IMG/VR virus record: IMGVR_UViG_3300049595_000603
Location: 1 to 44,787 of that record
DNA: 44,787 nucleotides
Direction: 5' to 3' (one strand)
Source: a virus
Position 1 is the stretch's first letter. Each line of letters begins with the position of its first letter. Positions 11,317 to 28,850 of the stretch are shown piece after piece. Below the pieces are notes generated by a model. It saw only the letters and a list, made by a program, of their open reading frames with translations. It was not told the DNA's origin and made no database searches. Made by a program: the position numbers and the translations under genes.

Positions 11317-11972
11317 TATGCCTCTTCCAGTGTAAGAGACACATTCCAAAAGTCAAAGTTTAAACCGCTTCTTTTTACAACTGAATAACTAAAGTCTGAG
11401 AAAAAAACTTCTACTATCTCATTATACTTATTAATATTATTAAATCTATTATCTATCTCGCTAGTGTCTGTATCTTCAAAATTTGTATACTTATCGTAAG
11501 AAAGATATACCCAGAAAGAACCTCTGTGATTTTCATACCAATTAAGAAGTTCTACTCCGCCTGCTCCGCCATCTGTTGTAAACTCTAAAGGGTTTGTCCT
11601 TGATGCGGTCTTAAGCATATCTGCATTTCCATTAGCATCAAAGTCTGCCTTGGTATCATATGCTCTTGATGGGAGCATATCCCAGGATGCTGTTATCTGT
11701 AGTTTATCTGCAATATGATATGACCTCATTCGGCCATTAATCATTCTTTCTCTTTTTTCAATTCTGGTAGGCTTAAAATTAATGTCTGATCTGTTATCAT
11801 CCGAAAGTATTAAAAACTCGCCATTGGAGCCTTCAGAGGCTGTATAGGACCCTATTTCACTGCCGTCTGGGATGTAGAAACCATCAACCTTTGTTCCAGG
11901 GTTATCAGCAAATAGCATTGCCTGTGGTCTAGAATACTTCTTTCTTCCAGACATGTAATTGTTAGTTGCCAT
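11316..11972 (-). CDS. Distal tail protein (Dit-like)
   Basis: A 218-residue protein between the tape measure gene and the hub gene, where siphophages encode the distal tail protein that caps the tube and organises the tip. Consistent features are the order of charged turns and strands (INFKPTRIEKRERMINGRMRS, ITASWDMLPSRAYDT) and a C-terminal strand block (VEVFFSDFSYSVVKRSGLNFD, then VSLTLEEA). The final VSLTLEEA is typical of tail-tube-like folds. Its stop overlaps the start of the hub gene and its start touches the tape measure stop, so the three are coupled. The call is mainly from position plus fold-like character. Confidence 0.6.
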   Translation of the reverse strand: MATNNYMSGRKKYSRPQAMLFADNPGTKVDGFYIPDGSEIGSYTASEGSNGEFLILSDDNRSDINFKPTRIEKRERMINGRMRSYHIADKLQITASWDMLPSRAYDTKADFDANGNADMLKTASRTNPLEFTTDGGAGGVELLNWYENHRGSFWVYLSYDKYTNFEDTDTSEIDNRFNNINKYNEIVEVFFSDFSYSVVKRSGLNFDFWNVSLTLEEA

Positions 11973-14900
11973 TAGATTCTAGTCCCCCTAAGTTTTTGTG
12001 ATTCAACGCTTCGTATTTGTGTCATAACAACCCTTGCAATTTCATCAGGGTTTGCTTCTGACTCTACATTAACATTAATACTATAATTATACACTGAGTC
12101 GCCAACTGATGATCCATTATTAATTGACTTCATTTTTTCTAAACCATAAGACTGCACAGCATACTTGCTCATCACAAACTCTCCTGGAGTAAGCATTGCA
12201 GGAACTGTATCTGTGCCACGAGCAAATGTGCTATTCCCCAACACTCCAGATATTAGTCCTCCCTTAGATTTATACTGTGGGGGAACAAACTTGCTGCCAA
12301 CATACACACCTGTTCCTGGAACAAGTTTTTGTGCTGGTATAAACGTACTTCCAGAGTAAACTCCTGTTCCTGGTTTAATTCCTGGATTTGGATCAACCTG
12401 CTTTTTTGGTGTAGGCGTTGGAGTAGGTTTTGGGGTAGGCTTTGGTGTAGGCTTTGGTGTAGGCTTTGATGTTGTAGTTGATGCAGAAAGTCTTGCTTGT
12501 GCTGCTGCAAGTTGTGACGCAATAGATGCTGCACCAATTGCTCCGCTTTCTGCTAATGCTAGTTTGCTTGGGCTAACTCCTGCTGCAGCCTTTGCTGCAG
12601 ATTCAAAATGACCCTTTGCTAATGCTGCTGCATATGCATCTGCTGCAGAATCACTCTTTGAGCCAGCACTTCCATCTACTGCTGCTGCTGCATCTGCTGC
12701 TACTTCTTCTGCTGCTGCATCTGCATTTGCTTTAATTCCATCTGCTACAACCTGTGCTGCTGCAGCGTTTTGTGCTGCTGCGATTGCTGCAATAACCTCT
12801 GCCCACTTAGCCCTAATTGCTTCAATGGCTGCAAGCATTCCTCCAAATACAGCAGTAAGATTTTGTGCTGCTACCTCACTAAGTTCAATTTCTGCTTTTA
12901 TCTTTTCAAACTGATCTCTTGATTTTCCTAAAACAGTCAAGTTAGATACATCTATATCAAGTCTTCTCTGTGCTAAATCATTTTGGTGCTGCATATCTGC
13001 AATGCTATCCTCAAGAGGCCACAGTTGTTCTTTATTAATTTTATAGATTGCATCTTCTTTATCTCTAATCTTTAGAAGTGCTGCTTCTCTTCCTTCTTCA
13101 AAATCATAAATTTTATCTTGCAGAGCCAAAATGTCTGCCATAATCTTAAGTCTTTCTGGATTATTTTCCATCTTATAGATTTCTTGACTTATAACAAACT
13201 GTCTTTCAGAAATTTGCAGTTGACTCAAACCGCTCTCTGCTCCACGCAAACCATCTAGTTCGTTTGTACGTGCCTGCTCAAGAGCATCCATCACTCCTTC
13301 TTGATTTCTTGATGCTTGGTCAGCACGACTTGCCTGCATAGCCCTTGCTGCTGCTGATATATCTCCCTGAGTAAGAGCATCTGCAAGATCTAACTGGCTT
13401 TGCTGCTGAGCAATAATTCCATCATTAATATCTGCTACCTTTTGTAGCGCTTCTGCCTGCTTGTCATATCTCTCATTAATCTTTTCTGCTTGGTTTGCCA
13501 TAATTGCCAAGTCATTAGAAAGTTTTGTATTTTCATCATTTAACTTTCCTATAGCACGATTACCAAAGATTGGATTCATCTCTAGTTCTCTTTCCATATC
13601 ACTGATTTTTTCTGAAGCCTCTTCGATTGGTCGTGTATAGTTCATTTCAATATCTCGTTCCATACCACGAATTTCACGATTAATTAATTCTATTTGATGT
13701 CTAAATCCTGCTGCCTTAAGTTCTGCTTCTGCAATTAACTTATTGTTCTTTTGAATAGTTGCAACATCTATCTTGTTTTGAGGAGAAGAGAATCCTTCAA
13801 CGCCGTTTCTAATCCCAGATTCAAGTGCAGCAAATAATCTTTCTGCTGCGTCAATTCCAGGCTGTGCTGCTTCTCCATACTTACCAGCATTATACTTTAC
13901 CTGAATATCAATAATTTTTTTGGCTTCAATAGAGTTTAGGAAGTCTGCTATTTCTTTAGCGTCGACCTTTCCATCTTTGAGGTCTTCAATTAAATGCTTT
14001 GCTAGTGCTGGATCTTCTAGTGCTGCTGCCATCTGATCTGCTGACATTCCTGCAGCCTTCATTGCAGTCATAAGTTTTGGCATTTGCTCTAAAAGTTTGA
14101 ACTCTTCATTTGCCTGAATCATTTTTTGTCTAAGTGCAAATCTTTCTAATTCAGAACTAGCCTTCTTTAAATCATCTATGTATGCTTTTCTTTCAGGTGA
14201 GCCTTCTTTGCCAAGAGTTCCTGCTGCAATTGCTGCTGCTACCGCAGCATCTTCTACATGCTTTAGCGCATCTGTTGCACTTACTCCGCTGGCAATAAGC
14301 ATTCTAAATGCTTTTTCTTTATCTGCAATTTCTGACACAGTTTCTTTATTTACAAGTTGAGCCTCTCCAATTTGTGCTTCTCTATAAAATCTCATTAGGC
14401 CATCGCCTGTTTTTGTTAGTCCCTCAATGTTAGCCTTTGTTCTTGGCTTACCCTTTTTAAATTTAAAGATTGCTTTTTCATTCTTTAAGTTTGCTATGGC
14501 CTTAAAGTCTTCTGCAGACATTCCCATAATCATGTCTCTAAATTCTTTTGGAACCTTCATCTTAAGCATTCTTTGTTGCAGGCCATCAAACACATCCATT
14601 AATGAAGATATGTCCTTTTTAGCCTTCTTACTATTAAGAGCAGCAAGCATTGACTTTAGTGGTTGTGTTGCATCAAATGCACCGTCACGAACATTCTTTA
14701 TTCTCATTGCAAGTTCTTCAAGGAAGTCTAATGGATTCTTTTTGCTTCCCTTGTCTCCGCCATCAAGAGGTCCACCAGGCTTGCTTGCAATAGTGGGGTC
14801 AGAACCAAAGATTGCTTCTACACCCTTATTAGCCCACGCTGCTGCTGCTTTAAAGTCATTTAGAGGAAGTGGCTTTCCATTTGCATCTAGTGTTAGCAGT

Positions 14901-17900
14901 CTAATTACAGTGTTGTATTCTGCTGTGTATTTTGCCGACCCCTTATCGCCCTTTAGAATTGCTGCATTTTCAGCCTGCAATTTAACCCAAGCATCCTTTT
15001 CTGCTTGTGTCTTAAATGATGTTGCCGTAGTAAACAATGTTGTATATGTTTCAAATGCTTCTTTTCTTACTTCTGGTTTTAGTTTTGAATAGTAATCCCA
15101 GTTATCTATAATTCCCTGCATGTCTACATTATTGTCTATTCCAAATTTAATAATTGCTTCTTTTTCTATTGGATCTGGTAATGCTTCAAGTGCTGCTAGT
15201 TTGTTTGATAACTCAACTAGTCCAGGCATACCAATTGTATCTATAGTTGCCTGCATATCTACTTCTAGGCCATCTGATCTTTGAAGAACTGCAATAGCCT
15301 TTCCTACTCTATCAAACTCTTCTGGATTCTTTCTAGACATCTGTATCATAATTCTCTTAGCAGTTTTCTTGTCAACACCGCTTAACATTCCTGCAAGTTC
15401 TGCCATCTTTGCTCCACCGTGTAGTCTCATACCAACTGCTAAGACTGTGTCCATCTTTTTTAGGTCGCCCTTAAAAATTTTCATCATTGTTTCAATTTGT
15501 TCTGGCTGCATTTGTCCAGACTGCATTAGGAAGTTTATTTTTGCTTCAAAGGTTCTTCCTTCATTTTTATTTGCAAAAGACTTATCTTCGTCTGCTCTAG
15601 CACCCAGATCCAAGACTCTTTGTGCTGATGCTTCTTGTGCTGTACCCTTGTACTTTGCTTTTACATCTGCTTTCTGTGCATCAAAGAAAGCATCTTGTCT
15701 TCTTGCTGCGTCATTTAAAAAGTTATTGCCAGTAAATAATTTTGATTTATTTTGATTAATAATATCACTAGCATAACTTGTTTGTCTTGAAATCTGTGCA
15801 GCAACAAGATTGTTAAGTCTGGCCATTCCAGCCTCTTGCTCCTTTGTCATTGCGACAATCTTTTCTTGTATTTCTAACTGCTTTTCTTTATTGGTTGTTG
15901 CTACCAACTCATTTTTTAATGTTTTTAATTGCTCATCATAGTACATAGACATTGCATCTGCTTGTGCCTGTGCTGTTTCAATTGCTGAAGATCCCGCAAC
16001 AGCAAGTGCTGCTGTTTTATCAGATCCAGATGCTGCACCAATAAGTCCAAGAGTTCCAAACATAGAAAGTTTGCTGTTGCCACCAACTTCTGACCTATCC
16101 TTTGAATTAACTTTTCTTACTAATTCTTCAGACAAAGATGCTGATCTTTGTGCAATTCTTGCTCTTACCTCTAAAGGATCTTTTGCTAAATCTTCTCCAT
16201 TTGGTCCAATAAGTTTTCTTAACTCTAAATTAATTCTTACGCCAGCAACAGAATCTTTGAGATTAATTCCCATCTGAGTTGCAATATCTTGTCCAAGTTC
16301 AGGGGCTATTGTTCCGTCAGATATCGCTGCTGCTATCTGTAATGCAAACTGTTCTGCTGCAACCTGTGTTCCATTCTTTGTTGCATTTGCTACAAATGCA
16401 TTTTGTAGTGCTTTACCTGCTTCTCCCTCAAGGAACTGTGCAGACTCCATAGTACTCTTTCTGTTGACCTCAACATAAGTATTTAGTTGTCCTTCGCCCC
16501 TTCTTTTATTCATTAATTCAGAAGCGCCTACCTTACCAGTTTGCTCTCCTATCTTTTTTAACATGTCTGCAGATACTGTTGTAGATCTTGTAAACTTTGC
16601 AATGGCTATTGCAGTACCTTCTAGTTTTTTATTTAAAGCATATGCTCCAATAGCAACTGCTGCGAGTGCTGCGACAATACCTTGTGGTCCAGTCATTCCT
16701 GCAATCATCGGCGCAAATTGTGCTACTGTTGCTACTGCTCCCAAGCCAGCCGTTACTGCAGGTGGGGCTCCTGCCATACCAGCAACCATTGCTGCCGTAC
16801 CTGCTGCTCCAGAAACCTTTCCAGAAAACTTTCCAACTTTCTCTCTACGCATTCCACGCTTCTTTTTCTTTATTTGGCTTTCAGTAAGCGTTGTTGGTTG
16901 TCTCTTTCCATCTTTATCTAATTCTGGATCAAAAAGTATATGACCATTCTTGTCTCTTGTATAGTTAGATGCCTCTTCGTATGCCTCAACTGACCCCATT
17001 CTATTTTTGTTTAGATCATTTTGTGATTGACTTCCTGGAGGAACAATTCCATTTTCTGCTGCTTGCAATGCTGCTTGCTCTGCATTGTATTTTTTAAGTC
17101 TTTCAAGTTCTCTTTGCTTTTCTGCTTCAATTTGCTCATTTATGTTAGCAACATTTGTTGAAGATTCTGCAAGGTCTTGCTGAGCAAAACCAGTCTGATC
17201 TGTTGCTTGAAGGACATCATTAAGGTTTCCAGTTGTTGCATTTGTGATCTGTGCGCCAGTTGAAAGGTTTGTTGCATTTTCTGTTTGAGCATTAACAGCA
17301 TCCTGTGTTACGCTTGCAAGTTCTTCTGTTTGACCTGCTACAACTTCAGAAGATTCTGCTGTAGTTTCTGTATCATCAACAATTCTTCTTAGGCCATCGC
17401 CTTGCTCTGCAGTTCCATTCGCTACGATTTCGTTTGGTGTTGCACTACCATTTTCTAACTGGGTTGCTTGGATATCTGCTTCTGCTGCTTTTATTCTTAA
17501 CTCTGCTGCTTTTATTTCTGCTTCATCTGCCTGCTTTTTTAGTGCTCTAGCATTTTCAGCAGTGTAAATATTCTTACCATCTTCACGTGCTGCGACTTCT
17601 TCCCATTTTGCTGCTTCAGTTCTAAGTTTTGCTGCTGATGCTTCTGCATTAGATGCTTCATTACTTAGCCTATCTGCTTCTTCACGAGCCTTGCCAATAT
17701 TAATAGTATTACCTTTAACAGTAACTCTTGATCTACTCTCGTCCTTAATCTGTTGTACAACCTGTGATTGTGCTGTGGCTGCTTGCTCCGTACTTACTGC
17801 TAACTGTTCGGCTGCTGCTTCAGTTCTTCCTGTTAATGAAACAGTTGCAGAAGAACTAGTTGACGCAGATGATGAACCTCCGACAGTTCCTGTAGCACCA

Positions 17901-20900
17901 AGTTTTCTTCTTTGTCTATCTTGAGACTTAAGAATTTGTCTTTCATCACGCATCTCTGGAGTATCAATATCGTCATAAAATGCTTTGTTTCCAAGATCCA
18001 TCTTGTCAACTTTTGCTTGCGTTTCTGCTGCAGTTGGAACTGCGGAACTTCCAAGTCTAGAAGACTGTGCAGAAACTGCTGCTTCTCCTTCTTGCATTCC
18101 TTGAACAATTCCATCAGCAACTTCTCTACCAGCCTTTATTCCCTTTTTAGATGGAGACCCTGCATCAGTTCCTTGAGGTCCTCTTACTCCGTCTGCTGCT
18201 GCTGCGCCAACCTTTGCTCCCTCTGCTTCGGCTCTGGCCTTATCTTCTGCACTGGCTTCAATCTTTGGAGCAATTGATGCTAACTCTGCTTCTTGCTTTG
18301 GAATTCTATAATCTTCTACTTCTGCTCTCTTTTTTGCAATAATCGCTAGTTGTTCTTCGGATAAAGGAAGTCTTTCCTTGCTTGTTTTTCCATCTGGTCC
18401 AACTGTTGTTCTATTTACTACTGGAGACTCTACATTTGATCTTCCTCCATACATTGATTCAGATCCTGGGTAATGAGAAAACTCCATGCTGTCTATGTCG
18501 TCTGAAAGTTCTGGATGCTTTGCTTTTAATCTTTTCTTTTGTTCTGCAGCATAGTAAGCCTCTGTTGTTCTTTCATCTCTCATTGTTGCTTCTCCAGGCT
18601 TACCATCTCTACCTGGTTTTACATCAACAACTGGATTACTTGGAATTATAAAATCTTGTGCTTTCTTTGGTGCAATGCGCTGTCTAATAATTTCTTTTTC
18701 TTTATTAGTTAAATCTGTTCTTTCTTCTATTGCCTTTAATGCTTTATCTGATGCAGTCTGCCATGATGATGTGGTTCCATCGTAAGCAAGAACCATTTCG
18801 TCAAGTGTTGATTCGAGTTCTACTAATACCTCTGATGCTCTCTCTGCTGAAGCCCCTGCTTTTTCCAAAGGAACTCTGATGTTTTCGTCCATAGAGTCTC
18901 TACCAAATTCACTTTGTAAATAATCTGGATCTTGTCCCATTTCTCCAGCAGCATTTTTTCCGTGGTTTACTTCTTTTGGTGCCAGGTTTCCAGCAGCAGA
19001 ATACTTTTTTTCTAAAACGCCAACAGGCATTCTTAGTCTGTCCGTTTGTGAGTTAAGCCCTAGTTGCTCAAATAGTTTTGCAATTATGTCTGATGAAAAT
19101 GGAGATTTGCCAGTACCCTTAGAGTACTTCATTACAGAACCATTTTGAAGTGCAGCAACTAGTTCTGGGTTTTCTTTTGCAGTCTGCTTGGTAATAACAA
19201 CTTCACCAGGAGTTAACAATGCTGGAACTGTATCTCTATTTCCAGATCCTGGAACAACTCCACCTGTTGCAAACTTCTTTGGAGGCAATCCTGCTACTGC
19301 TCCTGCTGGTCCTGGAACTGTATTAAATAGTCCTGGGGAGTTGCTTGCTAGTGCTCTAGCCTGACTAGATGCATTTGAATATGCTGCTGCAAGTGAATCT
19401 ACGGCTGCTTTCTCAACATTAAAGGTAGATATCAACTGGCTATGAGATGTATGAAGTGCATTTGTTTCTGCAAGGTTTTCAATTTGTTGATTAGTTAAAT
19501 AATCAAAACCACCACCCAATACATTGTTTTGTCCATTAAGTTTTGCAATTCCTCCACGCAACATTGCAAAGAATTTTATAAGGTTGGCAACACCGTTAGC
19601 AAGAATACCAAATGTCATCAAAGCAACTGGGGCAAGGCCTCCAATTACACCAATCATAATTGTTATTACTTTTTTAGTTCCATCCCCTAGTCCATTAAAT
19701 TTTTCTAAAATCTTTCCTGCAAAGGCGACTATTGGAGTTACTGCTTCTAGGAATGCCTTGCCAACTGGAACCAACTGTGTTTTAAGGTTTTCCATTGCCT
19801 TTTTAAATTTAGCGCCAGTTGAGTCTTCAATTCTTTTTAATTCTCTTTCAGATAGAATTGCTAGTTCTTCTACTGATGCCCCAGCAAGACCAAGTGCTCG
19901 GGCTGCTTGAGAAGAATCTTTTGTAACGTTTTGGAATAATGTTGACAGACGAGCAAACTGGAACTTTCCAAATAGTTGTTCGATTGCTCTTGCACGGTTA
20001 AGTGGATCTAACGTGTCAAGCGCTCTAGCAAACCCAACAACTGTTCCCTTTAAATCTCCAGCATTATTATTGACTATACCTTTTATATTTATACCAAGTT
20101 CAGCAAGAAATTCTGCTGACTTTTTTGAAGGGTTAATCATGGATGCAAGACCAGACTTAAGTGCGTTAGCACCTTCTGATGCGTTGATTCCACCTTCCTT
20201 CATAGCAGTCATAAAGAATGCTAGATCTTCAACGTTACCACCAAGTTGCTTTACAACTGGTCCAGCCTTTGGAATAGCAATTGTTAAATCTTCAATAGAT
20301 AGAACAGTCTGGTTTTCTACTGCGTTAAGGAAGTTTATCTTGCCTGCTAGTTCTTCTGTTGCAAGACCAAACGCATTTGTTAATGATATTGTTGTCTCAA
20401 GAGCCTGCTGCTGTTCTACCTGACCAAGTACAGAAAGTCTGGTTGCCTGAACTACCTGAGCACTTAGTGCATCTCCAGTAAGACCCATTGCTGCAGCAGA
20501 GGCAGCCATTTCCATAGTATCCTTTACTGCGATTCCATATTTTGTAAACTCTTTTCCAAGTCTTTGAATATCTGCAACTGCCTTGTTTGTTGCGTCACCA
20601 GAGGTTGTCATGTCTCCATAAACTCTAGTAAACTTAAGAACAGCCTGTTCCATTTCCATGAATGTCTTTGCTGCTGTAGAGCCAAGAATGGAAAGTGGTA
20701 TTGTCAAACCAACCATCAACTGACGGCCAGCCCACTGAGTATTCTTACCAAAGTTTAAAAGTTGTGTGGAGCCTTGCTTTAATAGTTGATTCAGGAACTG
20801 CTGTCTTTGTGCAGCCATTTGCATGCGAGTTGCATAGTCTGTATACTTGCCACCAGCCATTTGTAAGTGCTTTGGTATGACCTGCAAAACCTTGATCATG

Positions 20901-21322
20901 TCTCCATTTGCAGCCTGCATCTGGATATACTGTGACTGTAGAAGTTTTACTCTATCTTTACGAGCACGGTTAATAATCTCACGCTCTTGGGCAAACATGC
21001 CCTTAAATGTTTTGGTGTTGGCTGTTGCAGCAGCGACAGTGTATCTAAAATACTCTCGCATTGAGAGTTGGTTTTTTTCAAGTGCACTAGTAAAAGATGA
21101 AGTGCTTGTCGCTACTTCTTTTTGTGTTGCTACAAACTTACCAGTTGCATTAATAGCCTGCATTAATTGGGAGTTGAGTCCCTTTTGTGCATTCATTGCA
21201 GCAACATTTCCCTGAGTTAGGGATTGGTTGAAACGGCTTAGTCCCGCCTGTAACTGACGTAATTGTGCTAGTGCATTGGAGGTATCAAAATTAATACCTA
21301 TATTTGCATTTACGTCAGCCAA
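11972..21322 (-). CDS. Tape measure protein
   Basis: A 3116-residue protein, among the longer tape measures; it would set a tail of roughly 450-470 nm. Residues 1-190 are Gln-rich and helical. About 215-490 is a TP901-type core (MEMEQAVLKFTRVYGDMT, MAASAAAMGLTGDALSAQ, FMTAMKEGGINASEGANAL). Hydrophobic segments lie near 550-590 and 1490-1560. Long Ala-rich coiled coils cover 1100-1400 and 2400-2800. A KPTP repeat occurs near the C-terminus, and the protein ends with a VPAMLTPGEFV motif typical of tape measure C-termini. The start is TTG at 21322 with AGAGGTG six bases upstream; no in-frame ATG fits. It follows the tail chaperone genes, as usual. Confidence 0.95.
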   Translation of the reverse strand: MADVNANIGINFDTSNALAQLRQLQAGLSRFNQSLTQGNVAAMNAQKGLNSQLMQAINATGKFVATQKEVATSTSSFTSALEKNQLSMREYFRYTVAAATANTKTFKGMFAQEREIINRARKDRVKLLQSQYIQMQAANGDMIKVLQVIPKHLQMAGGKYTDYATRMQMAAQRQQFLNQLLKQGSTQLLNFGKNTQWAGRQLMVGLTIPLSILGSTAAKTFMEMEQAVLKFTRVYGDMTTSGDATNKAVADIQRLGKEFTKYGIAVKDTMEMAASAAAMGLTGDALSAQVVQATRLSVLGQVEQQQALETTISLTNAFGLATEELAGKINFLNAVENQTVLSIEDLTIAIPKAGPVVKQLGGNVEDLAFFMTAMKEGGINASEGANALKSGLASMINPSKKSAEFLAELGINIKGIVNNNAGDLKGTVVGFARALDTLDPLNRARAIEQLFGKFQFARLSTLFQNVTKDSSQAARALGLAGASVEELAILSERELKRIEDSTGAKFKKAMENLKTQLVPVGKAFLEAVTPIVAFAGKILEKFNGLGDGTKKVITIMIGVIGGLAPVALMTFGILANGVANLIKFFAMLRGGIAKLNGQNNVLGGGFDYLTNQQIENLAETNALHTSHSQLISTFNVEKAAVDSLAAAYSNASSQARALASNSPGLFNTVPGPAGAVAGLPPKKFATGGVVPGSGNRDTVPALLTPGEVVITKQTAKENPELVAALQNGSVMKYSKGTGKSPFSSDIIAKLFEQLGLNSQTDRLRMPVGVLEKKYSAAGNLAPKEVNHGKNAAGEMGQDPDYLQSEFGRDSMDENIRVPLEKAGASAERASEVLVELESTLDEMVLAYDGTTSSWQTASDKALKAIEERTDLTNKEKEIIRQRIAPKKAQDFIIPSNPVVDVKPGRDGKPGEATMRDERTTEAYYAAEQKKRLKAKHPELSDDIDSMEFSHYPGSESMYGGRSNVESPVVNRTTVGPDGKTSKERLPLSEEQLAIIAKKRAEVEDYRIPKQEAELASIAPKIEASAEDKARAEAEGAKVGAAAADGVRGPQGTDAGSPSKKGIKAGREVADGIVQGMQEGEAAVSAQSSRLGSSAVPTAAETQAKVDKMDLGNKAFYDDIDTPEMRDERQILKSQDRQRRKLGATGTVGGSSSASTSSSATVSLTGRTEAAAEQLAVSTEQAATAQSQVVQQIKDESRSRVTVKGNTINIGKAREEADRLSNEASNAEASAAKLRTEAAKWEEVAAREDGKNIYTAENARALKKQADEAEIKAAELRIKAAEADIQATQLENGSATPNEIVANGTAEQGDGLRRIVDDTETTAESSEVVAGQTEELASVTQDAVNAQTENATNLSTGAQITNATTGNLNDVLQATDQTGFAQQDLAESSTNVANINEQIEAEKQRELERLKKYNAEQAALQAAENGIVPPGSQSQNDLNKNRMGSVEAYEEASNYTRDKNGHILFDPELDKDGKRQPTTLTESQIKKKKRGMRREKVGKFSGKVSGAAGTAAMVAGMAGAPPAVTAGLGAVATVAQFAPMIAGMTGPQGIVAALAAVAIGAYALNKKLEGTAIAIAKFTRSTTVSADMLKKIGEQTGKVGASELMNKRRGEGQLNTYVEVNRKSTMESAQFLEGEAGKALQNAFVANATKNGTQVAAEQFALQIAAAISDGTIAPELGQDIATQMGINLKDSVAGVRINLELRKLIGPNGEDLAKDPLEVRARIAQRSASLSEELVRKVNSKDRSEVGGNSKLSMFGTLGLIGAASGSDKTAALAVAGSSAIETAQAQADAMSMYYDEQLKTLKNELVATTNKEKQLEIQEKIVAMTKEQEAGMARLNNLVAAQISRQTSYASDIINQNKSKLFTGNNFLNDAARRQDAFFDAQKADVKAKYKGTAQEASAQRVLDLGARADEDKSFANKNEGRTFEAKINFLMQSGQMQPEQIETMMKIFKGDLKKMDTVLAVGMRLHGGAKMAELAGMLSGVDKKTAKRIMIQMSRKNPEEFDRVGKAIAVLQRSDGLEVDMQATIDTIGMPGLVELSNKLAALEALPDPIEKEAIIKFGIDNNVDMQGIIDNWDYYSKLKPEVRKEAFETYTTLFTTATSFKTQAEKDAWVKLQAENAAILKGDKGSAKYTAEYNTVIRLLTLDANGKPLPLNDFKAAAAWANKGVEAIFGSDPTIASKPGGPLDGGDKGSKKNPLDFLEELAMRIKNVRDGAFDATQPLKSMLAALNSKKAKKDISSLMDVFDGLQQRMLKMKVPKEFRDMIMGMSAEDFKAIANLKNEKAIFKFKKGKPRTKANIEGLTKTGDGLMRFYREAQIGEAQLVNKETVSEIADKEKAFRMLIASGVSATDALKHVEDAAVAAAIAAGTLGKEGSPERKAYIDDLKKASSELERFALRQKMIQANEEFKLLEQMPKLMTAMKAAGMSADQMAAALEDPALAKHLIEDLKDGKVDAKEIADFLNSIEAKKIIDIQVKYNAGKYGEAAQPGIDAAERLFAALESGIRNGVEGFSSPQNKIDVATIQKNNKLIAEAELKAAGFRHQIELINREIRGMERDIEMNYTRPIEEASEKISDMERELEMNPIFGNRAIGKLNDENTKLSNDLAIMANQAEKINERYDKQAEALQKVADINDGIIAQQQSQLDLADALTQGDISAAARAMQASRADQASRNQEGVMDALEQARTNELDGLRGAESGLSQLQISERQFVISQEIYKMENNPERLKIMADILALQDKIYDFEEGREAALLKIRDKEDAIYKINKEQLWPLEDSIADMQHQNDLAQRRLDIDVSNLTVLGKSRDQFEKIKAEIELSEVAAQNLTAVFGGMLAAIEAIRAKWAEVIAAIAAAQNAAAAQVVADGIKANADAAAEEVAADAAAAVDGSAGSKSDSAADAYAAALAKGHFESAAKAAAGVSPSKLALAESGAIGAASIASQLAAAQARLSASTTTSKPTPKPTPKPTPKPTPTPTPKKQVDPNPGIKPGTGVYSGSTFIPAQKLVPGTGVYVGSKFVPPQYKSKGGLISGVLGNSTFARGTDTVPAMLTPGEFVMSKYAVQSYGLEKMKSINNGSSVGDSVYNYSINVNVESEANPDEIARVVMTQIRSVESQKLRGTRI
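12407..12468 (-). repeat. KPTP-encoding 12-bp tandem repeat in the tape measure gene
   Basis: Roughly five tandem copies of a 12-base unit (GGTGTAGGCTTT on the plus strand) encode a Lys-Pro-Thr-Pro linker near the C-terminus. Such repeats are prone to change copy number; the linker probably separates the helical body from the terminal VPAMLTPGEFV motif. Confidence 0.85.
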
Positions 21323-21335
21323 TCACGACACCTCT

Positions 21336-21659
21336 TTACTTGATTGAGTTTAAAAGACCTGTTGCATCAGAAAGGTTCATACCTGAAGCAGCATCAATGA
21401 TCTTGTAGACTGTAGGAAGATCTAGATTTTCCTCAATCGCCTCTCTGTTGTCTGCTAATGCAGGCAAGTATTGTTTAAATGCAATCTGGACACAGTCAAG
21501 CAAAACATCCATTGACTTGTCGTTATCATCTGCCACATCCTGAAGACCTGAAAAATTCTTCATAAATGGCTTAAGCAAAGAGATCTTAAGTGGTCTTGCT
21601 TCAAACTTTGTACCGTCGATAAGAGAAAGTTCGTTCTTATCTTTAACATCTGTACTCAT
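21336..21659 (-). CDS. Short tail assembly chaperone paralogue (G-like)
   Basis: A 107-residue protein between the longer chaperone and the tape measure gene. It aligns with the N-terminal half of the longer one: both have DG-x-x-x-E-x-x-PLKI near the start, a QF/QYLP-type helix, and a closing motif (LDLPTVYKIIDAASGM here, VDLQNIYDILDITAGI there). These proteins chaperone the tape measure before tube assembly. The second ATG (Met-Ser-Thr) is the better start because GGAGG lies six bases before it; the upstream ATG at 21671 overlaps that Shine-Dalgarno. It has no C-terminal T-like extension, so it probably supplies a free G-type protein. Confidence 0.75.
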   Translation of the reverse strand: MSTDVKDKNELSLIDGTKFEARPLKISLLKPFMKNFSGLQDVADDNDKSMDVLLDCVQIAFKQYLPALADNREAIEENLDLPTVYKIIDAASGMNLSDATGLLNSIK

Positions 21660-21683
21660 ATTATCCTCCATTGTAGTTGTTTA

Positions 21684-21692
21684 ATTATACCA
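21684..21692 (-). promoter_or_regulatory. Extended -10 promoter TGGTATAAT upstream of short chaperone
   Basis: The minus strand reads TGG-TATAAT in the gap between the two chaperone genes, about 24 bases before the preferred ATG at 21659. A leader with GGAGG follows, so this gene would have a normal ribosome-binding site. Confidence 0.6.
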
Positions 21693-21708
21693 TAAACAGG
21701 CTTGTTTT

Positions 21709-22392
21709 TTACTCTATTTTTTCATAATTTAGACCTAGGCCTATGCCAAATCCAGCCCTTTGTGCATTGACTCCTTGAAGCGCAACAATGTCTTTTGAGT
21801 TGGCTGCTTGACCACCACTAAATACTCTGGCTTTCATTTCTTCCCAAGCATTACTCTTTTGAGCATTTTTATCTAGGTCAACCCCCTGCATTGCTGCAAG
21901 GAACTTTTTTTCATCGTAGTTTAATTCTCTGCCTATAGACAGTGTTATCATTAATTCTGGCATGGACAAAGATCTTTCAAGTTCGTCATAATCTTTCCAT
22001 ATGCCCAACAAAAACACCTCAGACTCTAATTTTGCTAAATCTAGTTCATCCCAGGAAGATCCGCTATCTACGGCTTGTTTTTTTATTGGCTCCTCAGATT
22101 GTTCATTAATCTTAATCCCAGCAGTTATATCCAGTATGTCATATATATTTTGTAAGTCAACATACTCTTCTAGCATTTCTTGAGTCTGTGTGATTTCTGG
22201 TCTAAACTGTTTCATACATATTCTTGCACATTTTGATAATGCAATTATTGCTTCAAGGTCTCCTCTGGAGTTTCTTACCTCATCAAAGATATCCATTAAC
22301 TGTCTAAGATATTTTATTTTTAATGGGGCTAACTCTATCTCTACACCATCTTGTAGGATAATATTTTTTGTATTATAAACAGTTGTTGCCAT
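21709..22392 (-). CDS. Long tail assembly chaperone (G-T type in one frame)
   Basis: A 227-residue protein directly downstream of the major tail gene. Residues 1-95 match the G-like chaperone domain. Residues 110-205 (DELDLAKLESEVFLLG, RELNYDEKKFLAAMQGVDLD) look like the T-type extension that most siphophages reach by -1 frameshifting. Here G and T are in one open frame. A run of seven A (22078-22084) at codons Ile-Lys-Lys 103-105 is a slippery site at the junction; a -1 or +1 slip would stop within a few codons and give a short G-only protein. The start at 22392 was chosen because an extended -10 ends six bases before it; upstream codons run into a terminator hairpin. Confidence 0.75.
   Translation of the reverse strand: MATTVYNTKNIILQDGVEIELAPLKIKYLRQLMDIFDEVRNSRGDLEAIIALSKCARICMKQFRPEITQTQEMLEEYVDLQNIYDILDITAGIKINEQSEEPIKKQAVDSGSSWDELDLAKLESEVFLLGIWKDYDELERSLSMPELMITLSIGRELNYDEKKFLAAMQGVDLDKNAQKSNAWEEMKARVFSGGQAANSKDIVALQGVNAQRAGFGIGLGLNYEKIE
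22078..22084 (-). promoter_or_regulatory. Candidate A7 frameshift site at the G/T junction
   Basis: The minus strand reads ATA AAA AAA CAA, so tRNA-Lys pairs can slip by one base onto identical codons (A AAA AAA). In the -1 frame a TAG follows after four codons (22064-22066); in the +1 frame a TAG follows after two. Slipping would truncate rather than extend the product. No strong downstream stem-loop is obvious, so this is a candidate only. Confidence 0.45.
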
Positions 22393-22398
22393 CATACA

Positions 22399-22407
22399 AG
22401 TATACCA
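22399..22407 (-). promoter_or_regulatory. Extended -10 promoter TGGTATACT (leaderless start of long chaperone)
   Basis: The minus strand reads TGG-TATACT, six bases before the ATG at 22392 and immediately after the hairpin at 22415-22440. No Shine-Dalgarno is present. Confidence 0.65.
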
Positions 22408-22414
22408 AACAGAA

Positions 22415-22440
22415 AGGCCCAACCCCGAAGGATTGAGCCT
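22415..22440 (-). terminator. Terminator-like hairpin after the major tail gene
   Basis: An 11-base-pair stem (with two G-T pairs) closes a TTCG tetraloop on the minus strand, starting 18 bases after the major tail stop codon. TTCTGTTT follows. The stem is strong and the U-tract is interrupted, so it may terminate partly or protect the 3' end of the tail mRNA. Confidence 0.75.
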
Positions 22441-22458
22441 CTCATATATTAAGTTGTA

Positions 22459-23097
22459 TTATGCGCCTGCTGGGATAGTGCGATCTACGATCTTACCGTA
22501 TGATGCATTATCGTTTGGAAGAAGACGGAATGATACTTCGAACATTGTCGCTTCGTCTCTCTTTGCAGATACTGAAACGCTTTCGATTGAAAGTGCACGG
22601 TATGCTACATAGATTCTTTCGATTGAAGATCCTGCTGCACAGTCTCCTGTACCTGGACCTACTGCAACCAAACCACGCTCAACTGGACATTCTCCGATGT
22701 CTCCTGCTGAAAGGTTGAGTGCTGATGATCCTGCTCCTGCAGTGTTGTATGCTCCTAGATCGTCGTCCTTACCTGCTAATGCAAATAGAAGATTCTCTAG
22801 TGTTGCTTCTGCAAATGTAGTATTTAGGTTAACCTGCATGCCTTGCTTAAATAACTTAGCAACGTCAAGTACCTGGTCTACTGCAACTTCACCGAAATCT
22901 GGCTGGAATTGAATTTCCAAACCATTCATTGTGTATCCAACGTTACGGAATGCGTCGTCATCAGAAAGGGAATCCTTAAATGATGTCGCTGCTTCGTATG
23001 CTGGAAGGTCTGCGTCTGTGAGTACGCCTGCTTCATGTGTGAAGAGGGCTGCTGCTCCAACGATAATATCGTTGCTGCTACCACGTGTATATGCCAT
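22459..23097 (-). CDS. Major tail tube protein
   Basis: A 212-residue protein placed between the tail terminator gene and the chaperone genes, the standard site of the major tail protein. It begins MAYTRGSSNDIIVGAAALF and contains a short NGLEIQFQPDFGEV strand segment and alternating strands in the C-terminal half (SIESVSVSAKRDEATMFEVSF), as in tube proteins. The ATG at 23097 is preceded by AGAGGTG; a GTG three codons upstream is less likely. Its isolated -10 promoter, long leader, strong ribosome-binding site and terminator hairpin suggest a separately and highly expressed mRNA, as expected for a protein with hundreds of copies in such a long tail. Confidence 0.85.
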   Translation of the reverse strand: MAYTRGSSNDIIVGAAALFTHEAGVLTDADLPAYEAATSFKDSLSDDDAFRNVGYTMNGLEIQFQPDFGEVAVDQVLDVAKLFKQGMQVNLNTTFAEATLENLLFALAGKDDDLGAYNTAGAGSSALNLSAGDIGECPVERGLVAVGPGTGDCAAGSSIERIYVAYRALSIESVSVSAKRDEATMFEVSFRLLPNDNASYGKIVDRTIPAGA

Positions 23098-23151
23098 ATT
23101 TTTCACCTCTTTTTTTTCTTTTGGATTAAAAGGGCTTGTTTCCTCACCTTA

Positions 23152-23160
23152 ATTATAGCA
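23152..23160 (-). promoter_or_regulatory. Extended -10 promoter TGCTATAAT of the major tail gene
   Basis: The minus strand reads TGC-TATAAT, about 54 bases upstream of the ATG at 23097. The leader between contains a purine-rich stretch and AGAGGTG. No consensus -35 is seen at the expected distance. Confidence 0.65.
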
Positions 23161-23167
23161 TCCCTTT

Positions 23168-23719
23168 TTAGGGGTTTACTGAGTCAATTATGTCTTGCAT
23201 CTGGTGGTAGTCGTAGTCGATGATTATTTTGTTACCCGCATAGGTTCTGGCTGTTCCAAAGTCAACTATGTCCCTTGCCTCTTCTAATTGGTAAATCCTA
23301 AAGTTGTGGAAGTAGAATTTACAGGTCATGCCACCTATTGGGGCGTGATTTCTAGCCCAAGTATTTATATCTTCGGCAGTCTCATCACCACGATCCATAA
23401 GCCTTAAAACTGCTTCTTGTATTTGAATCATTCTAACTATTGGATTGTCTGCCTGAGCATAAAAATAGTACAAAACTTGCTCGCATTTAATATGTGGAAA
23501 TGCTCCACGGCGCATTCTAAACATTCTGTCATATACAGCCATTGCTCCACCTTCGGGAAATGATGTCTGTAATGCTTCTATTGTTGATGGGCCTGTTGGA
23601 AAAAATGGAATTAGTTCATTTTGACTTCCAGGTTGAGGTAGAAAGTCTGCAAGTTTTTCTTGTAAGTATGTATTAATCCATAATATAGGAGTGTTCATTG
23701 GTGATAGTGAGTCTGTCAT
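23168..23719 (-). CDS. Tail terminator-like protein
   Basis: A 183-residue protein encoded just before the major tail protein, where siphophages place the tail terminator (lambda gpU-like), which caps the tube at the head end. Visible features are an N-terminal helix (ILWINTYLQEKLADFLP), a strand-loop region with FPHIKCEQVLYYFYAQA, a helix (RMIQIQEAVLRLMDRG) and a strand-rich C-terminus (CKFYFHNFRIYQLEEARD). These suit the mixed alpha/beta terminator fold. Its start touches the stop of the neck gene. The call depends mostly on gene order. Confidence 0.6.
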   Translation of the reverse strand: MTDSLSPMNTPILWINTYLQEKLADFLPQPGSQNELIPFFPTGPSTIEALQTSFPEGGAMAVYDRMFRMRRGAFPHIKCEQVLYYFYAQADNPIVRMIQIQEAVLRLMDRGDETAEDINTWARNHAPIGGMTCKFYFHNFRIYQLEEARDIVDFGTARTYAGNKIIIDYDYHQMQDIIDSVNP

Positions 23720-24393
23720 TATGATGCCACCGTTGCGTTAGCGACCCATCGATATCCTGTAGATAAACCAACAGACTTTCCGCCACGCTTTCCCCTTCCT
23801 AAATTTTTCTTATACGATATTGGGTTCTCGAAGTACTGCTTAAGATTACCACTATTTAAAAATGCTTGAGTAAAGTATCTACCAAAAAACATATCAAAGG
23901 CTTTTTCGAATTCTCCCTGTGTAGTTCCTCCTGGGTTATCAACAACAACCTTCTTTCTGGTGTAGACTACTTCTCCATTTACTTCAAATCTCAAAACCTC
24001 AGAGTTGCGTGGTTTTATAACTACGGTTGTTCCATCTTCCATTATTGATGCTTTATTACGAAACGGCTCTTTTGATCCCTGCTTAATTGTGCTTGACTGT
24101 TTAAATGATGATATAAATGAAAGACCAATGTTGCTAACAGTATAGTTTATGTCAAACAGTCTGGCATCTGGGCTACCATTTTTATACCACTCATAAACAT
24201 GGTGCAAAGTTTCTGGAGACACTCTTGCGTTGGAGTCTATAAATTGAGAAGCAATTTCAGAAACTTCAGTTCCAAGTGACTTTAAAAACTCAGTCTTACC
24301 TTTTTGGACTCCTTCAGTAAAGCCAACAGAGTAGTCAATAATGTTCTTCATTTCTTTTTTAAATGCTTTGTTGTCAAATCTAACGGCTATCAT
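23719..24393 (-). CDS. Neck / HK97 gp10-like head-tail protein
   Basis: A 224-residue protein in the slot between head-tail stopper and tail terminator. The first part (FDNKAFKKEMKNIIDYSVGF, then GKTEFLKSLGTEVSEIASQFI) resembles the helical start of HK97 gp10-like proteins. The C-terminus is basic and Gly-rich (NLGRGKRGGKSVGLSTGYRW), which may contact DNA or the portal ring; that is inference. It overlaps the preceding gene by four bases (ATGA), showing translational coupling. Longer than typical gp10 (about 130-150 residues), with an inserted strand block in the middle. Confidence 0.55.
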   Translation of the reverse strand: MIAVRFDNKAFKKEMKNIIDYSVGFTEGVQKGKTEFLKSLGTEVSEIASQFIDSNARVSPETLHHVYEWYKNGSPDARLFDINYTVSNIGLSFISSFKQSSTIKQGSKEPFRNKASIMEDGTTVVIKPRNSEVLRFEVNGEVVYTRKKVVVDNPGGTTQGEFEKAFDMFFGRYFTQAFLNSGNLKQYFENPISYKKNLGRGKRGGKSVGLSTGYRWVANATVAS

Positions 24394-24836
24394 ACATCCA
24401 CCGCCTGATTCTCTGATCTTCTAATAATTAGTTTGTAGTATTCAACTCCACCAAAAGGTCCTACAAATGGATCTTGTGTTGCAATTTCAAAGATTGTGGA
24501 CTTGCCTGCTCTTGGGCCAGATGTTTCTGTGTAAATATCGTTACAGTTTTTATCTCTAATGTTTGTAACTATAACATTTGTAATTGAGTTTTTGGCTTCA
24601 AGGCTGGACATTCTTATGTCGGTCTTTACTCTGCCAATTAAAAGTTTTTCTTCTGTAATATTTACGTTTGGAGTTAACTCTTCTTTAAATGCTCCTCCTG
24701 CTGATGAAAAAGAACATGCAATTGTTCTATCCAATATCCATGTCTTTTGTACGTTTCCATAAACTCCTTGCTCAACTACAGGATGGTAAACATCTGCAAG
24801 CATCGGAAACGTAAAGTCTGGCTCTTCGCATATCAT
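24390..24836 (-). CDS. Head-tail stopper/head-closure-like protein
   Basis: A 148-residue beta-rich protein between the adaptor and neck genes. Its opening (FTFPMLADVYHPVVEQGVYG) and pattern of strands fit the small barrel of head-closure proteins (SPP1 gp16-like), which prevent DNA leaking from the portal. The segment ITNVIVTNIRDKNCNDIY and the end GGVEYYKLIIRR also suit a beta barrel. The start overlaps the adaptor stop (TAATG). No motif is decisive, so the call rests on length, fold-like pattern and position. Confidence 0.5.
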   Translation of the reverse strand: MICEEPDFTFPMLADVYHPVVEQGVYGNVQKTWILDRTIACSFSSAGGAFKEELTPNVNITEEKLLIGRVKTDIRMSSLEAKNSITNVIVTNIRDKNCNDIYTETSGPRAGKSTIFEIATQDPFVGPFGGVEYYKLIIRRSENQAVDV

Positions 24837-25756
24837 TAAATTATCCCTGGCTTGACAATGGTCTTAACATATTTGTCAAGTATCTTATCAACTAAGAAGT
24901 TACCAGTACCGCCAAGCATTGCCTTGTCAAATTGAATTCTAAATTGATCTGTATTGTATGCTGTTATATATCTCTTGTAGTAATCTAATTTTCCACACTT
25001 AAGGTCTTCAATTAATAACTTCGCTGCATACTCTACATCTTCAGGAACGTTTAAATATCCATGATCTACAACGAATGTATAGTCATATCCTGATGGGAAA
25101 GATATTCCTTCGTATCCGTAGTAACCAAGATCTCCGCTTGCCACTGGTAGGTTTTGCGCTGTTGATTCATACCTGTTTAACTCAAGAACATCTGCACGAA
25201 CTCTCTGTATAGCGGTCTTGTCTGGTGTTATTGCATACTGATACTCACTCAAATCTGGAGTTGATCTATCGTAAACTAAAACATTGTTCTCATAAACCTT
25301 GAATACTCTATAAACTTTTTCCCACAAAGAGAAGTAGTCTGACCCATTGCCAGTTCCAACTATTGTTATCTTTTTGTTATAAAAGCCTTCTGGCACAAAT
25401 GTGTCTATCATTGACCTTGCTACTAATTCTAAAATTTTATATTCTGCAATTTCTGATGCAGTTGTTCCTAATGTATTTGGGTCTACGTATGGCCTGATTA
25501 GTTCATAGTATTCTTCGTGAATTAATTCTTCACCCTCGCTAATTTTATAAATCTCTACTCTGTAATTATTATCATACCTTCCAGGAAGATATATGTTTAT
25601 ATTGTCTCCTGTTGACCATCCTAAAAATTCTAAAACCTGGACTGAAAGGTCCGCCATATCTGTTACTCTTGCGTAAATATCTGCATCTTCGTACCCTGAA
25701 GGTACTACAAAATTTACAACAATGTCATCGTATGGCGGAACTCTCAATATCTCCAT
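24836..25756 (-). CDS. Head-tail adaptor protein with extra N-terminal domain
   Basis: A 306-residue protein encoded after the capsid genes. The C-terminal 80 residues (VPEDVEYAAKLLIEDLKCGK, then a basic YYKRYITAYNTDQFRIQF segment and IVKPGII) match the helical character of portal-binding adaptors (HK97 gp6/SPP1 gp15 type). The N-terminal ~110 residues form a separate beta-rich, Tyr-rich domain (YEDADIYARVTDMADLSVQVLEFLG, INIYLPGRYDNNYRVEIY) that resembles an Ig-like or carbohydrate-binding sandwich. The total is about twice the usual adaptor length, so the N-terminal domain may decorate the neck. Two bases separate it from the preceding gene. Confidence 0.5.
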   Translation of the reverse strand: MEILRVPPYDDIVVNFVVPSGYEDADIYARVTDMADLSVQVLEFLGWSTGDNINIYLPGRYDNNYRVEIYKISEGEELIHEEYYELIRPYVDPNTLGTTASEIAEYKILELVARSMIDTFVPEGFYNKKITIVGTGNGSDYFSLWEKVYRVFKVYENNVLVYDRSTPDLSEYQYAITPDKTAIQRVRADVLELNRYESTAQNLPVASGDLGYYGYEGISFPSGYDYTFVVDHGYLNVPEDVEYAAKLLIEDLKCGKLDYYKRYITAYNTDQFRIQFDKAMLGGTGNFLVDKILDKYVKTIVKPGII

Positions 25757-25758
25757 AT

Positions 25759-26220
25759 TTACTTACCGAATTCCTTGGCAACTTCTTCTGGGGTGGCTGT
25801 GCGGATGTGTGAACGAGTAAGCCACTTTTCAGCAGCATCCTTTTCAACAATGTTGTAGCCACGGTAAACCTTACCTATTTCTGGCCAAGTAACATTCTTT
25901 GTTGAGTAAAGTGCTACAGTTTCTTTCTTTGCAGCAGGCTTAGAAGCCTTCTTCTTTTCAGGTGCCTTTGGTGCTGTGGTTGCCCCAATCACTCCTTCTG
26001 CAACAGAGCCTAGTGCCTGAACTTCTTCAGGTGCCTGGTAAACTGGTGCTTCGATAGCCTCTTCGTGAACTGGTTGATGTACTTCTTCTACAACTGGAGT
26101 TTCTACAACATGCTCGACAACTGGTGCCTCAACAACAGGCTCTTGTGCAACTAGTGCTTCAAAAACTGGTGATTCATGTACTGTTTCTTCTACAATTGGA
26201 TTTTCATTAATGTTTTCCAT
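25759..26220 (-). CDS. Acidic VEP-rich head-associated protein
   Basis: A 153-residue protein just after the major capsid gene. The first ~65 residues are a low-complexity acidic tract of repeating Val-Glu-x-Pro (APVVEHVVETPVVEEVHQPV). A Lys/Ala/Pro linker follows (APEKKKASKPAAKK), then a compact C-terminal domain (YSTKNVTWPEIGKVYRGYNI, then VEKDAAEKWLTRSHIRTATP). The C-terminal domain is of a type often seen in actinobacterial phages behind the capsid gene; its function is not established to my knowledge. AAGGAGG before the ATG gives strong translation. A head-tail or capsid-interior role is inferred from position. Confidence 0.65.
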   Translation of the reverse strand: MENINENPIVEETVHESPVFEALVAQEPVVEAPVVEHVVETPVVEEVHQPVHEEAIEAPVYQAPEEVQALGSVAEGVIGATTAPKAPEKKKASKPAAKKETVALYSTKNVTWPEIGKVYRGYNIVEKDAAEKWLTRSHIRTATPEEVAKEFGK

Positions 26221-26237
26221 AATTCCTCCTTGTTAGT

Positions 26238-26246
26238 ATTATATCA
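26238..26246 (-). promoter_or_regulatory. Extended -10 promoter TGATATAAT after the capsid gene
   Basis: The minus strand has TGA-TATAAT overlapping a second TATAAT at 26246-26251. Both lie between the hairpin at 26260-26289 and the AAGGAGG of the VEP-rich gene. Confidence 0.6.
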
Positions 26247-26259
26247 TTATAAGTAGTAA

Positions 26260-26289
26260 GGGGAGCAGGAGCGTTAACTCCTACTCCCC
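26260..26289 (-). terminator. Terminator-like hairpin after the major capsid gene
   Basis: Two 12-base arms (GGGGAGCAGGAG and its near complement, one mismatch) close a six-base loop, 21 bases after the capsid stop codon. Only a short mixed tract (TTACTACTT) follows on the minus strand, so it may be an mRNA-stabilising stem as much as a terminator. Confidence 0.65.
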
Positions 26290-26310
26290 CTAAATTGTAC
26301 TGTTTACAGA

Positions 26311-27459
26311 TTATTCGTCTGCTGCAGCATCAGCGAATGCAATTGCATCCTGCTCTTCCCATTGAATACCGAAGCGAACGAAGACTGTATATTCTACAGT
26401 GTCCTTCTTTGGCTTGTATTCACGGTTTACTGTGATGTCACGCTGGAATCCCCATACACGGTTCTGTGGGAATGTCAAGTCGACATATCCTGCAGGGTAG
26501 TAAGGAACTTCCTGTACGTCAATTCCGAGAACACGTGTTGTACGTGCTCCACCGAATGTCTGTGCTCCACCATCAAGGTATGCCTGACGGTTAGTTGGAG
26601 TACCACCAGCCTGAGAAGCAAATGCTTCTGCGACTGCGTCTGCTAGAGTACCGTTGTTCTTAACGATTCCCTGGAATGCATCTGTACCAGCATAGAACTT
26701 CAAGTTAGACTTGATAGCACGATACTTGCGTGGCATTGCTAGGATGATGTTCTGCATTACATCTGTTGTCCAGGCGTTATTAGCGACTGTTACTACAGCC
26801 TCATGAGCATCTCCGTCTGTCTTAACGCGGTTTACGAAACCTTCCATGATTGAAAGGAATGCGTCTGATCCTGCACCTGTTCCGTTGATTGCAAGGTCTT
26901 CGATATCATTACCGAAAGCGTTTGTCATCAAGCGGACAATGTGATCTTCTAGTGCTGCACCTTCGATGTTATCTTCTAGTGCTTCTGCAGATACTTCCCA
27001 GTCAAGACGAATCTTCTTTGTAGTCAATTCAACCTTTGAGAATGTTGCACCTGCGTTTGTGTAATCGCCAACTGCTTGCGCTGCTGCACGAATAACACGC
27101 TCTCCGACGTTTACCTTTTCGAGTTCCATTGTATTGGCTCTCATAGTAACACGACGGCCATCTTGGGCGAGAATGGTAGCATCCCACACGTAGTCGATAA
27201 AACGACGTGCTTGCTCTGGGCGTAGGATACCTGATCCAGCCTCACCTGAAGGGTTAACTGCATTTGGTCCAGATGTTACTCCTGATAGTGCTGTTGGGAT
27301 ATTACCCAAGACACCACCATCGGTGTAATTACCTGGTACGTTTGAACCTGCTTCAGATCCAGATGCGAATGCACCTTGTCCCTGATACAGTCCTGGTGCT
27401 GTTCCACCAAGATTACCTGAAGTTCCAGGCTGGTTCTTTTCTATATTTTGTTCCGACAT
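26311..27459 (-). CDS. Major capsid protein (HK97 fold)
   Basis: A 382-residue protein directly downstream of the protease/scaffold gene. The first ~75 residues are Gly/Ser/Pro-rich and flexible, a tail that the protease may remove. The remainder shows the HK97-type order: an N-arm and E-loop-like region (RRVTMRANTMELEKVNVGER), a long helix with EDHIVRLMTNAFGNDIEDLA, P-domain and A-domain segments (NLKFYAGTDAFQGIV), and a closing ITVNREYKPKKDTVEYTVFV typical of capsid C-termini. AGGAGGTGA gives one of the strongest ribosome-binding sites in the window. The downstream hairpin also fits high expression. Confidence 0.88.
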   Translation of the reverse strand: MSEQNIEKNQPGTSGNLGGTAPGLYQGQGAFASGSEAGSNVPGNYTDGGVLGNIPTALSGVTSGPNAVNPSGEAGSGILRPEQARRFIDYVWDATILAQDGRRVTMRANTMELEKVNVGERVIRAAAQAVGDYTNAGATFSKVELTTKKIRLDWEVSAEALEDNIEGAALEDHIVRLMTNAFGNDIEDLAINGTGAGSDAFLSIMEGFVNRVKTDGDAHEAVVTVANNAWTTDVMQNIILAMPRKYRAIKSNLKFYAGTDAFQGIVKNNGTLADAVAEAFASQAGGTPTNRQAYLDGGAQTFGGARTTRVLGIDVQEVPYYPAGYVDLTFPQNRVWGFQRDITVNREYKPKKDTVEYTVFVRFGIQWEEQDAIAFADAAADE

Positions 27460-27495
27460 ATTGTCACCTCCTGTGATTTTTTACTTATTGTTTTT

Positions 27496-28812: not shown

Positions 28813-28821
28813 GGTTATTCT

Positions 28822-28830: not shown

Positions 28831-28850
28831 CCTTTTTTTCTAAAGTATCA

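Follow-up and report, generated by a model that had tools for sequence, protein, structure and literature searches.

Here we report a tail-gene locus in which the short (G) and long (GT) forms of a tail-assembly chaperone appear to be supplied by two genes with opposite promoter and leader classes. The locus lies in IMG/VR virus record IMGVR_UViG_3300049595_000603, of which the whole stretch of 44,787 nucleotides was analysed (hereafter the window). According to PMC5009743, a -1 frameshift by which the G:GT ratio is set is widely conserved among long-tailed phages other than T4. We consider it probable that a terminator ends the mRNA of the major tail protein gene (mtp), that a leaderless promoter behind it yields little GT, and that dosage is controlled by two promoters in place of a frameshift. 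A clade embedded in a group of frameshifting relatives would then have dropped the frameshift, and the steps of its replacement can be read in the DNA: a duplication, an in-frame fusion, the loss of a heptamer, and two opposite promoter and leader classes. This makes it testable whether the tail needs the frameshift itself or only the ratio.

Table 1. Features of the tail-gene locus in the window, in the order of transcription.
Feature	Coordinates	Strand	Basis
Extended -10 TGCTATAAT, upstream of the major tail protein gene	23152..23160	-	TGNTATAMT search
Major tail protein gene (mtp), 212 aa	22459..23097	-	phrog_2175, E 6e-29; 46% identity to Streptomyces-phage 'major tail protein'
Terminator-like hairpin, UUCG loop, then TTCTGTT	22412..22443 (core 22415-22440)	-	Sequence, scan and fold; present in 115/115 fused-type loci
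Extended -10 TGG-TATACT (TGGTATACT)	22399..22407	-	Window sequence; -10 ends 6-9 nt before ATG in 114/115 fused-type loci
ATG, predicted start codon and predicted first mRNA base (leaderless)	22390..22392	-	6 bases past the -10; ATG in 115/115 and no Shine-Dalgarno in 115/115 fused-type loci
GT-type tail-assembly chaperone (227 aa), with G and T parts in a single fused frame	21709..22392	-	phrog_10504 (residues 1-105), phrog_10474 (residues 131-189); predicted fold
Extended -10 TGGTATAAT of the G gene	21684..21692	-	TGNTATAMT search; TGn-TATAAT in 109/110 second-G genes
Shine-Dalgarno GGAGG of the G gene	21665..21669	-	Read from the window sequence
G-type chaperone, paralogue of the GT N-terminal part, 107 aa	21336..21659	-	phrog_10504; 30% identity to GT residues 1-99
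Long ORF after G, 3116 aa, in the place of the tape measure	11972..21322	-	ORF list; identity inferred from Streptomyces-phage gene order

Neither phrog_10504 nor phrog_10474 has an assigned function, and the identity of GT and G as chaperones comes from their homologues in Streptomyces phages, which lie between tail protein and tape measure and many of which are annotated as tail assembly chaperone. The structure model of GT (mean pLDDT 78) gave three matches at E <= 0.001 in a viral fold library, one of them named tail assembly chaperone (6.4e-4), and weaker matches to Arthrobacter phage Kitkat (1.6e-2) and to the GT of N15 (3.8e-2). Comparison with the PDB, for G by profile and for the GT model by fold, yielded no significant match, and no Pfam family was found for the tail protein, GT or G at E 0.001. 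Homology and position between major tail protein and tape measure are those of a lambda-type chaperone; a T part in the -1 frame with a slippery heptamer was not found, GT being one open frame. The short spacing between GT and G showed no terminator-like hairpin, so the GT mRNA probably continues into G. The first-pass annotation of the gap behind mtp had overlooked the fused GT and the separate, Shine-Dalgarno-led G gene, which supply the likely purpose of the arrangement.

The gap itself proved to be built as that annotation had described it. The spacing from the mtp stop to the ATG at 22392 is 66 bases on the minus strand, which is the strand of all features in Table 1; the core stem AGGCTCAATCC/GGGTTGGGCCT with its TTCG loop (22440-22415) has 11 bp, two G-U pairs included, and lengthens to 14 bp with the flanking pairs (22443-22412); and TGG-TATACT, claimed to follow the stem within eight bases, begins after seven (TTCTGTT). 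The RNA of positions 22448-22399 folds at -23.4 kcal/mol (z -5.4), with none of 200 shuffles equally stable. When the 60-mers downstream of 38 window genes were compared, only those of mtp (z -4.7) and the capsid gene (z -6.1) beat all 200 shuffles; these are the two genes that one expects to be the most expressed. A stable, G + C-rich hairpin right after a coding sequence is what an intrinsic terminator would look like, and the hairpin at 22440-22415 has the most pairs of any site returned by a generic terminator scan of positions 14000-32000. The T-run 3' of the stem satisfies the rule of that scan, yet it is interrupted (TTTCTGTTTGG), and generic sites in the region showed no excess (14 found against 13.1 expected). 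Rfam at gathering scores gave no match and ARAGORN no tRNA. A similar order of elements follows the capsid gene (26311-27459), where a 16-bp hairpin (26292-26257) precedes TGATATAAT (26246-26238) and a gene at 26220; here, too, the promoter comes after the terminator, but the gene is led by a Shine-Dalgarno sequence.

Six bases, TGTATG, lie between the -10 and the ATG at 22392-22390, as had been claimed. The place of a -35 element (22427-22422) reads CGGGGT and falls within the hairpin, and an extended -10 promoter is therefore the only type possible; the TGn that defines it precedes the -10 both in the window and in 109 of 115 related loci. The longest-ORF start, TTG at 22422, sits in the 3' arm of the stem, and a further in-frame ATG at 22395 lies just three bases past the -10, which leaves 22392 as the start predicted to fit a transcript that begins about seven bases past the -10. 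The earlier statement that the start at 22422 is wrong because it lies inside the hairpin thus gains support from its position in the 3' arm together with the ATG and -10 comparison across the 115 loci, and for annotators of fused-type genes a start-codon rule follows: 22392 here, and not 22395 or 22422.

In the window, TGNTATAMT occurs 14 times against 4.8 expected, a number reached by none of 100 shuffles, and 13 of the 14 sites are on the minus strand, many of them just before gene starts. A scan for -35/-10 promoters found 35 sites against 42.2 expected, hence without excess, and the promoter at 22407-22399 was not among them. Taken in the window alone, the spacing -10-N6-ATG is no more frequent than chance would give (2 found, 1.5 expected; 46 of 100 shuffles), and -10-N7-ATG occurs 4 times against 1.2 expected (4 of 100 shuffles); the significance of the -10-to-ATG spacing comes from the relatives and not from the window by itself. 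Several other minus-strand starts stand near a -10-like box without an obvious Shine-Dalgarno sequence, namely 44500 (6 nt), 30862 and 2076 (both 7 nt), and, by eye, 4955 and 34588 (9 nt). This phage may perhaps use leaderless starts quite generally.

Named relatives of the tail protein comprise 127 Streptomyces and 5 Rhodococcus phage records, all below 60% identity, and they point to an actinobacterial host. A search for the host with the ribonucleotide reductase of the window led to a single 3-kb contig, from a metagenome-assembled genome titled Chitinophagaceae (L181, JAFMJX010000223.1); a protein that it encodes shares 84% identity with residues 1-140 of the query, and it is probably a phage contig binned into that genome. 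For comparison, 179 loci were collected from IMG/VR and two GenBank phages, the window's own copy being left out: the best 80 matches listed with the window tail protein, 19 with the tail protein of Streptomyces phage Braelyn, and 78 further loci with an alignment, taken from another list of the best 80 matches. As two of the IMG/VR sets hold only the best 80 matches, the 179 loci are a sample. They were classed with two profile HMMs, one for the G part and one for the T part; one comparison took in 77 of the 80 fused loci.

Two layouts account for nearly all of these loci. Among the matches listed, 110 of the 179 have a fused GT and a separate second G, and five have a fused GT without a second G (four are cut inside GT, and one ends 151 bases after it), so that a second G is present in all 110 fused-type loci with more than 151 bases beyond GT. 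Another 57 loci have one G with a T frame that overlaps it in the -1 frame by 22-91 nt; the remainder, three with G only and four with neither, are all at contig ends. A second T frame in a fused-type locus, or a second G in a frameshift-type locus, was found in none of the 179 loci among the matches listed. In many GenBank records of Streptomyces phages the T part is entered as a hypothetical protein of its own, with a separate start, although the loci that were read show it overlapping G in the -1 frame.

Promoters and leaders were surveyed in 169 loci, with start codons picked by script; the three G-only loci were set aside, and six frameshift-type loci that each repeat a contig already taken were removed, which reduced that type from 57 to 51. 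The fused-type GT gene begins with ATG and has no Shine-Dalgarno sequence in 115 of 115 loci among the matches listed. Its -10 is TATACT in 81 of the 115, and the distance from the end of the -10 to the ATG is 6 nt in 96 and 7-9 nt in 18; in the remaining locus (L067) the script had taken an ATG further along, and the earliest ATG that fits is again at 6 nt. A -10 placed this close would let transcription start at the ATG itself. The second G gene (110 loci) has TGn-TATAAT in 109, with a distance to the start of 21-39 nt; four or more bases of AGGAGG are present in 104, and its starts are 93 ATG, 14 GTG and 3 TTG, script-picked and possibly misplaced in part. With GT lacking leader features and G having a Shine-Dalgarno sequence and 21-39 nt, opposite leader classes occur in one genome; TGn stands before the -10 of both. 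Among the 51 frameshift-type loci listed, the -10 lies 18-44 nt from the start (ATG in 18, TTG in 17, GTG in 16) and a Shine-Dalgarno sequence is present in 50, which places the single chaperone gene of this layout, by these features, in the leader class of G. The fused, leaderless layout and the overlapping, leadered layout do not mix (115 and 51 loci, respectively, among the matches listed).

The hairpin, too, is a constant feature of the fused type: it is present in 115 of 115 gaps among the matches listed, in 57 different sequences, with 0 of 2300 dinucleotide shuffles equally stable, and ends 0-8 nt before the TGn (the 8 again belonging to L067 and its misplaced start). Sequences that turn over while the geometry stays are what selection on structure and spacing looks like. 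Frameshift-type gaps fold as well, with hairpin-to--10 distances of up to 25 nt; the shuffle figure refers to the fused type only. Together with the -10 near the ATG and the missing Shine-Dalgarno sequence, the comparison lends support to the original proposal of a terminator packed against a leaderless promoter. One could instead see the hairpin as protecting an RNA 3' end, or as the place where a longer RNA running through mtp, GT and G is processed, a reading that would suit the interrupted T-rich tail (TTCTGTT) and the lack of excess in the generic terminator scan. Processing, however, would need neither a hairpin fixed so closely before an extended -10 in every fused-type locus nor a -10 at 6-9 nt from the ATG in 114 of 115, and such a hairpin follows only the capsid and tail protein genes among the 38 of the window, so we regard this reading as very unlikely.

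The slippery heptamer of the relatives was sought in the G/T overlap of 37 frameshift-type representatives, where a canonical one in the G frame was found in 28 (CCCAAAN in 27, GGGAAAC in one). The other nine, which all belong to the Streptomyces Samistivirus type or lie near it, have CCCGGAA there, and as they are without a canonical heptamer their frameshift is presumed from the overlap. CCCGGAA in place of CCCAAAN was noted in the Samistivirus-type loci L081, L088-L091, L094, L096 and L098-L100. CCCAAAN was found in 3 of 59 fused GT genes and in none of 57 second G genes; in the fused GT the relatives' heptamer has been lost. It would be highly improbable, in our estimation, that the fused gene still yields a short G-like product by slippage and that the second G is dispensable. 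Some XXXYYYZ heptamer does occur in codons 85-135 of 16 of the 59 fused GT genes, and the low identity between G and GT (30%) means that the second copy could serve another role; against this, the heptamers other than the three CCCAAAN are of mixed types, and the second G is kept in each of the 110 fused-type loci with more than 151 bases beyond GT.

Codon choice bears on the abundance of the two forms independently of the promoter reading. Codon adaptation was measured in 56 of 59 fused loci relative to the codon choice of the tail proteins taken together, and averaged 0.604 for the second G and 0.435 and 0.453 for the N and C halves of GT; G exceeded the N half of GT in all 56 loci and the C half in 55 of them. 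Within the window the values were 0.748 for the tail protein, 0.674 for G and 0.377 for GT, the last being the lowest among the 12 genes measured. These values suggest that G is abundant and GT scarce, and they favour the earlier view of an abundant tail tube and a low-abundance chaperone (0.748 against 0.377).

A tail-protein tree of 96 rows, one per 95% cluster, has the fused type clustered; it needs at least two changes of layout, of which well-supported branches force only one. A frameshift-type locus with GGGAAAC (L137) sits beside the fused clade. A single origin of the fused layout is likely, and the fusion, the leaderless start and the second G may have arisen together, in which case the fused clade offers no independent repeat of their link. 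The first G-domain tree (30 of 57 fused loci and 37 frameshift-type loci) requires two changes for the frameshift-type G. When the long-branch loci L137, L127, L162 and L155 were removed (28 of 57 fused loci), each group fell on one side of a branch; the frameshift-type G had a support of 93 and was not starred, and the first tree, with the four loci in, is less clear. The split of GT N-terminal part, second G and frameshift-type G in the reduced tree is as one old duplication would give.

It is conceivable, though we think it unlikely, that terminator and leaderless promoter are real but ordinary, and that their tie to the GT/G split reflects shared ancestry without a dosage function. Signals are tightly packed in this genome, actinobacterial systems often use leaderless starts (PMC7148126 puts leaderless transcripts at about 14% of mycobacterial genes), a single origin is compatible with the tail-protein tree, and the five other window starts named above are also near a -10. 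What argues against mere ancestry is that the opposite leader classes of GT and G are kept across 59 clusters (95% tail-protein identity) while the hairpin sequences turn over, and that codon adaptation differs in the same direction in 56 of 56 loci.

Under the preferred reading of two promoters in place of a frameshift, the 66-base spacing would hold an intrinsic terminator set against an extended -10 promoter. The hairpin and T-rich tail would stop the abundant mtp mRNA about 13-20 bases before the next ATG, and the extended -10, off consensus at one base, would begin a leaderless GT mRNA at the ATG at 22392, as its geometry implies. The G mRNA, with its Shine-Dalgarno leader, would begin from the consensus TGnTATAAT promoter. 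Scarce long GT and plentiful short G would then come from two genes with opposite promoter and leader classes, where the relatives would make both forms from one gene by -1 frameshifting. We infer termination at the hairpin, the exact start site at 22392, the G:GT ratio and its setting by promoter and leader class from the arrangement of these elements. A leaderless start need not be a weak one: leaderless reporters in M. smegmatis are described as being translated about as well as one control leader, with a lower predicted transcript production (PMC7148126), and TGN is reported to accompany stronger, not weaker, promoters in M. tuberculosis (PMC3898074). A more elaborate version, in which the polymerase terminating at the hairpin occludes or restarts at a promoter whose upstream half lies in the terminator, strikes us as distinctly unlikely; if such a coupled device were real, GT output would be tied to tail-tube output, and the ratio of tube, G and GT would be set by the coupling and not by ribosomal slip.

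Comparison with known systems places the locus near lambda G/GT, which likewise has a short and a long form with a shared N-terminal part, encoded between major tail protein and tape measure, and in which the short form is the more abundant (30:1; PMC5009743), the same direction as suggested here by codon use. It differs from lambda in that GT is one open frame, G has its own gene, the heptamer of the relatives is absent, and there is a promoter for each gene. Some T4-like phages are described as having one short and one long fused chaperone gene without a frameshift (Vladimirov et al. 2022, cited in PMC10274946), the long gene being the short one fused to a downstream part, so the principle is already in print. 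The phrog matches, the 30% identity and the locus classes show the same pair of a separate short gene and a long fused gene in our case; the likeness concerns the described gene layout only, and here the layout sits among frameshifting relatives and has opposite leader classes. In a literature search we recognised no paper with this layout in the Streptomyces-phage relatives or with the leader classes of the two genes. The Streptomyces phages Braelyn and Muntaha (Stanwilliamsviridae) share the order of tail protein, chaperone and tape measure and, in the gap behind the tail protein gene, a hairpin and a sequence resembling an extended -10, but have a single G, a T overlapping it in the -1 frame, and a Shine-Dalgarno leader. 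Mycobacterial leaderless genes also have a -10 box near the start codon and no -35 consensus (PMC3898074). They differ in that the gene considered here is a phage gene, in the frequency of TGn (109/115 here against 7% reported for M. tuberculosis; PMC3898074), and in that the promoter here abuts a terminator hairpin. Outside the fused clade, one frameshift-type locus (L101) has an extra ORF of about 100 codons in the same gap, about 12-354 nt past the tail protein stop and directly behind a hairpin, with TGGTATAAT 7 nt before its ATG in a leaderless-like position.
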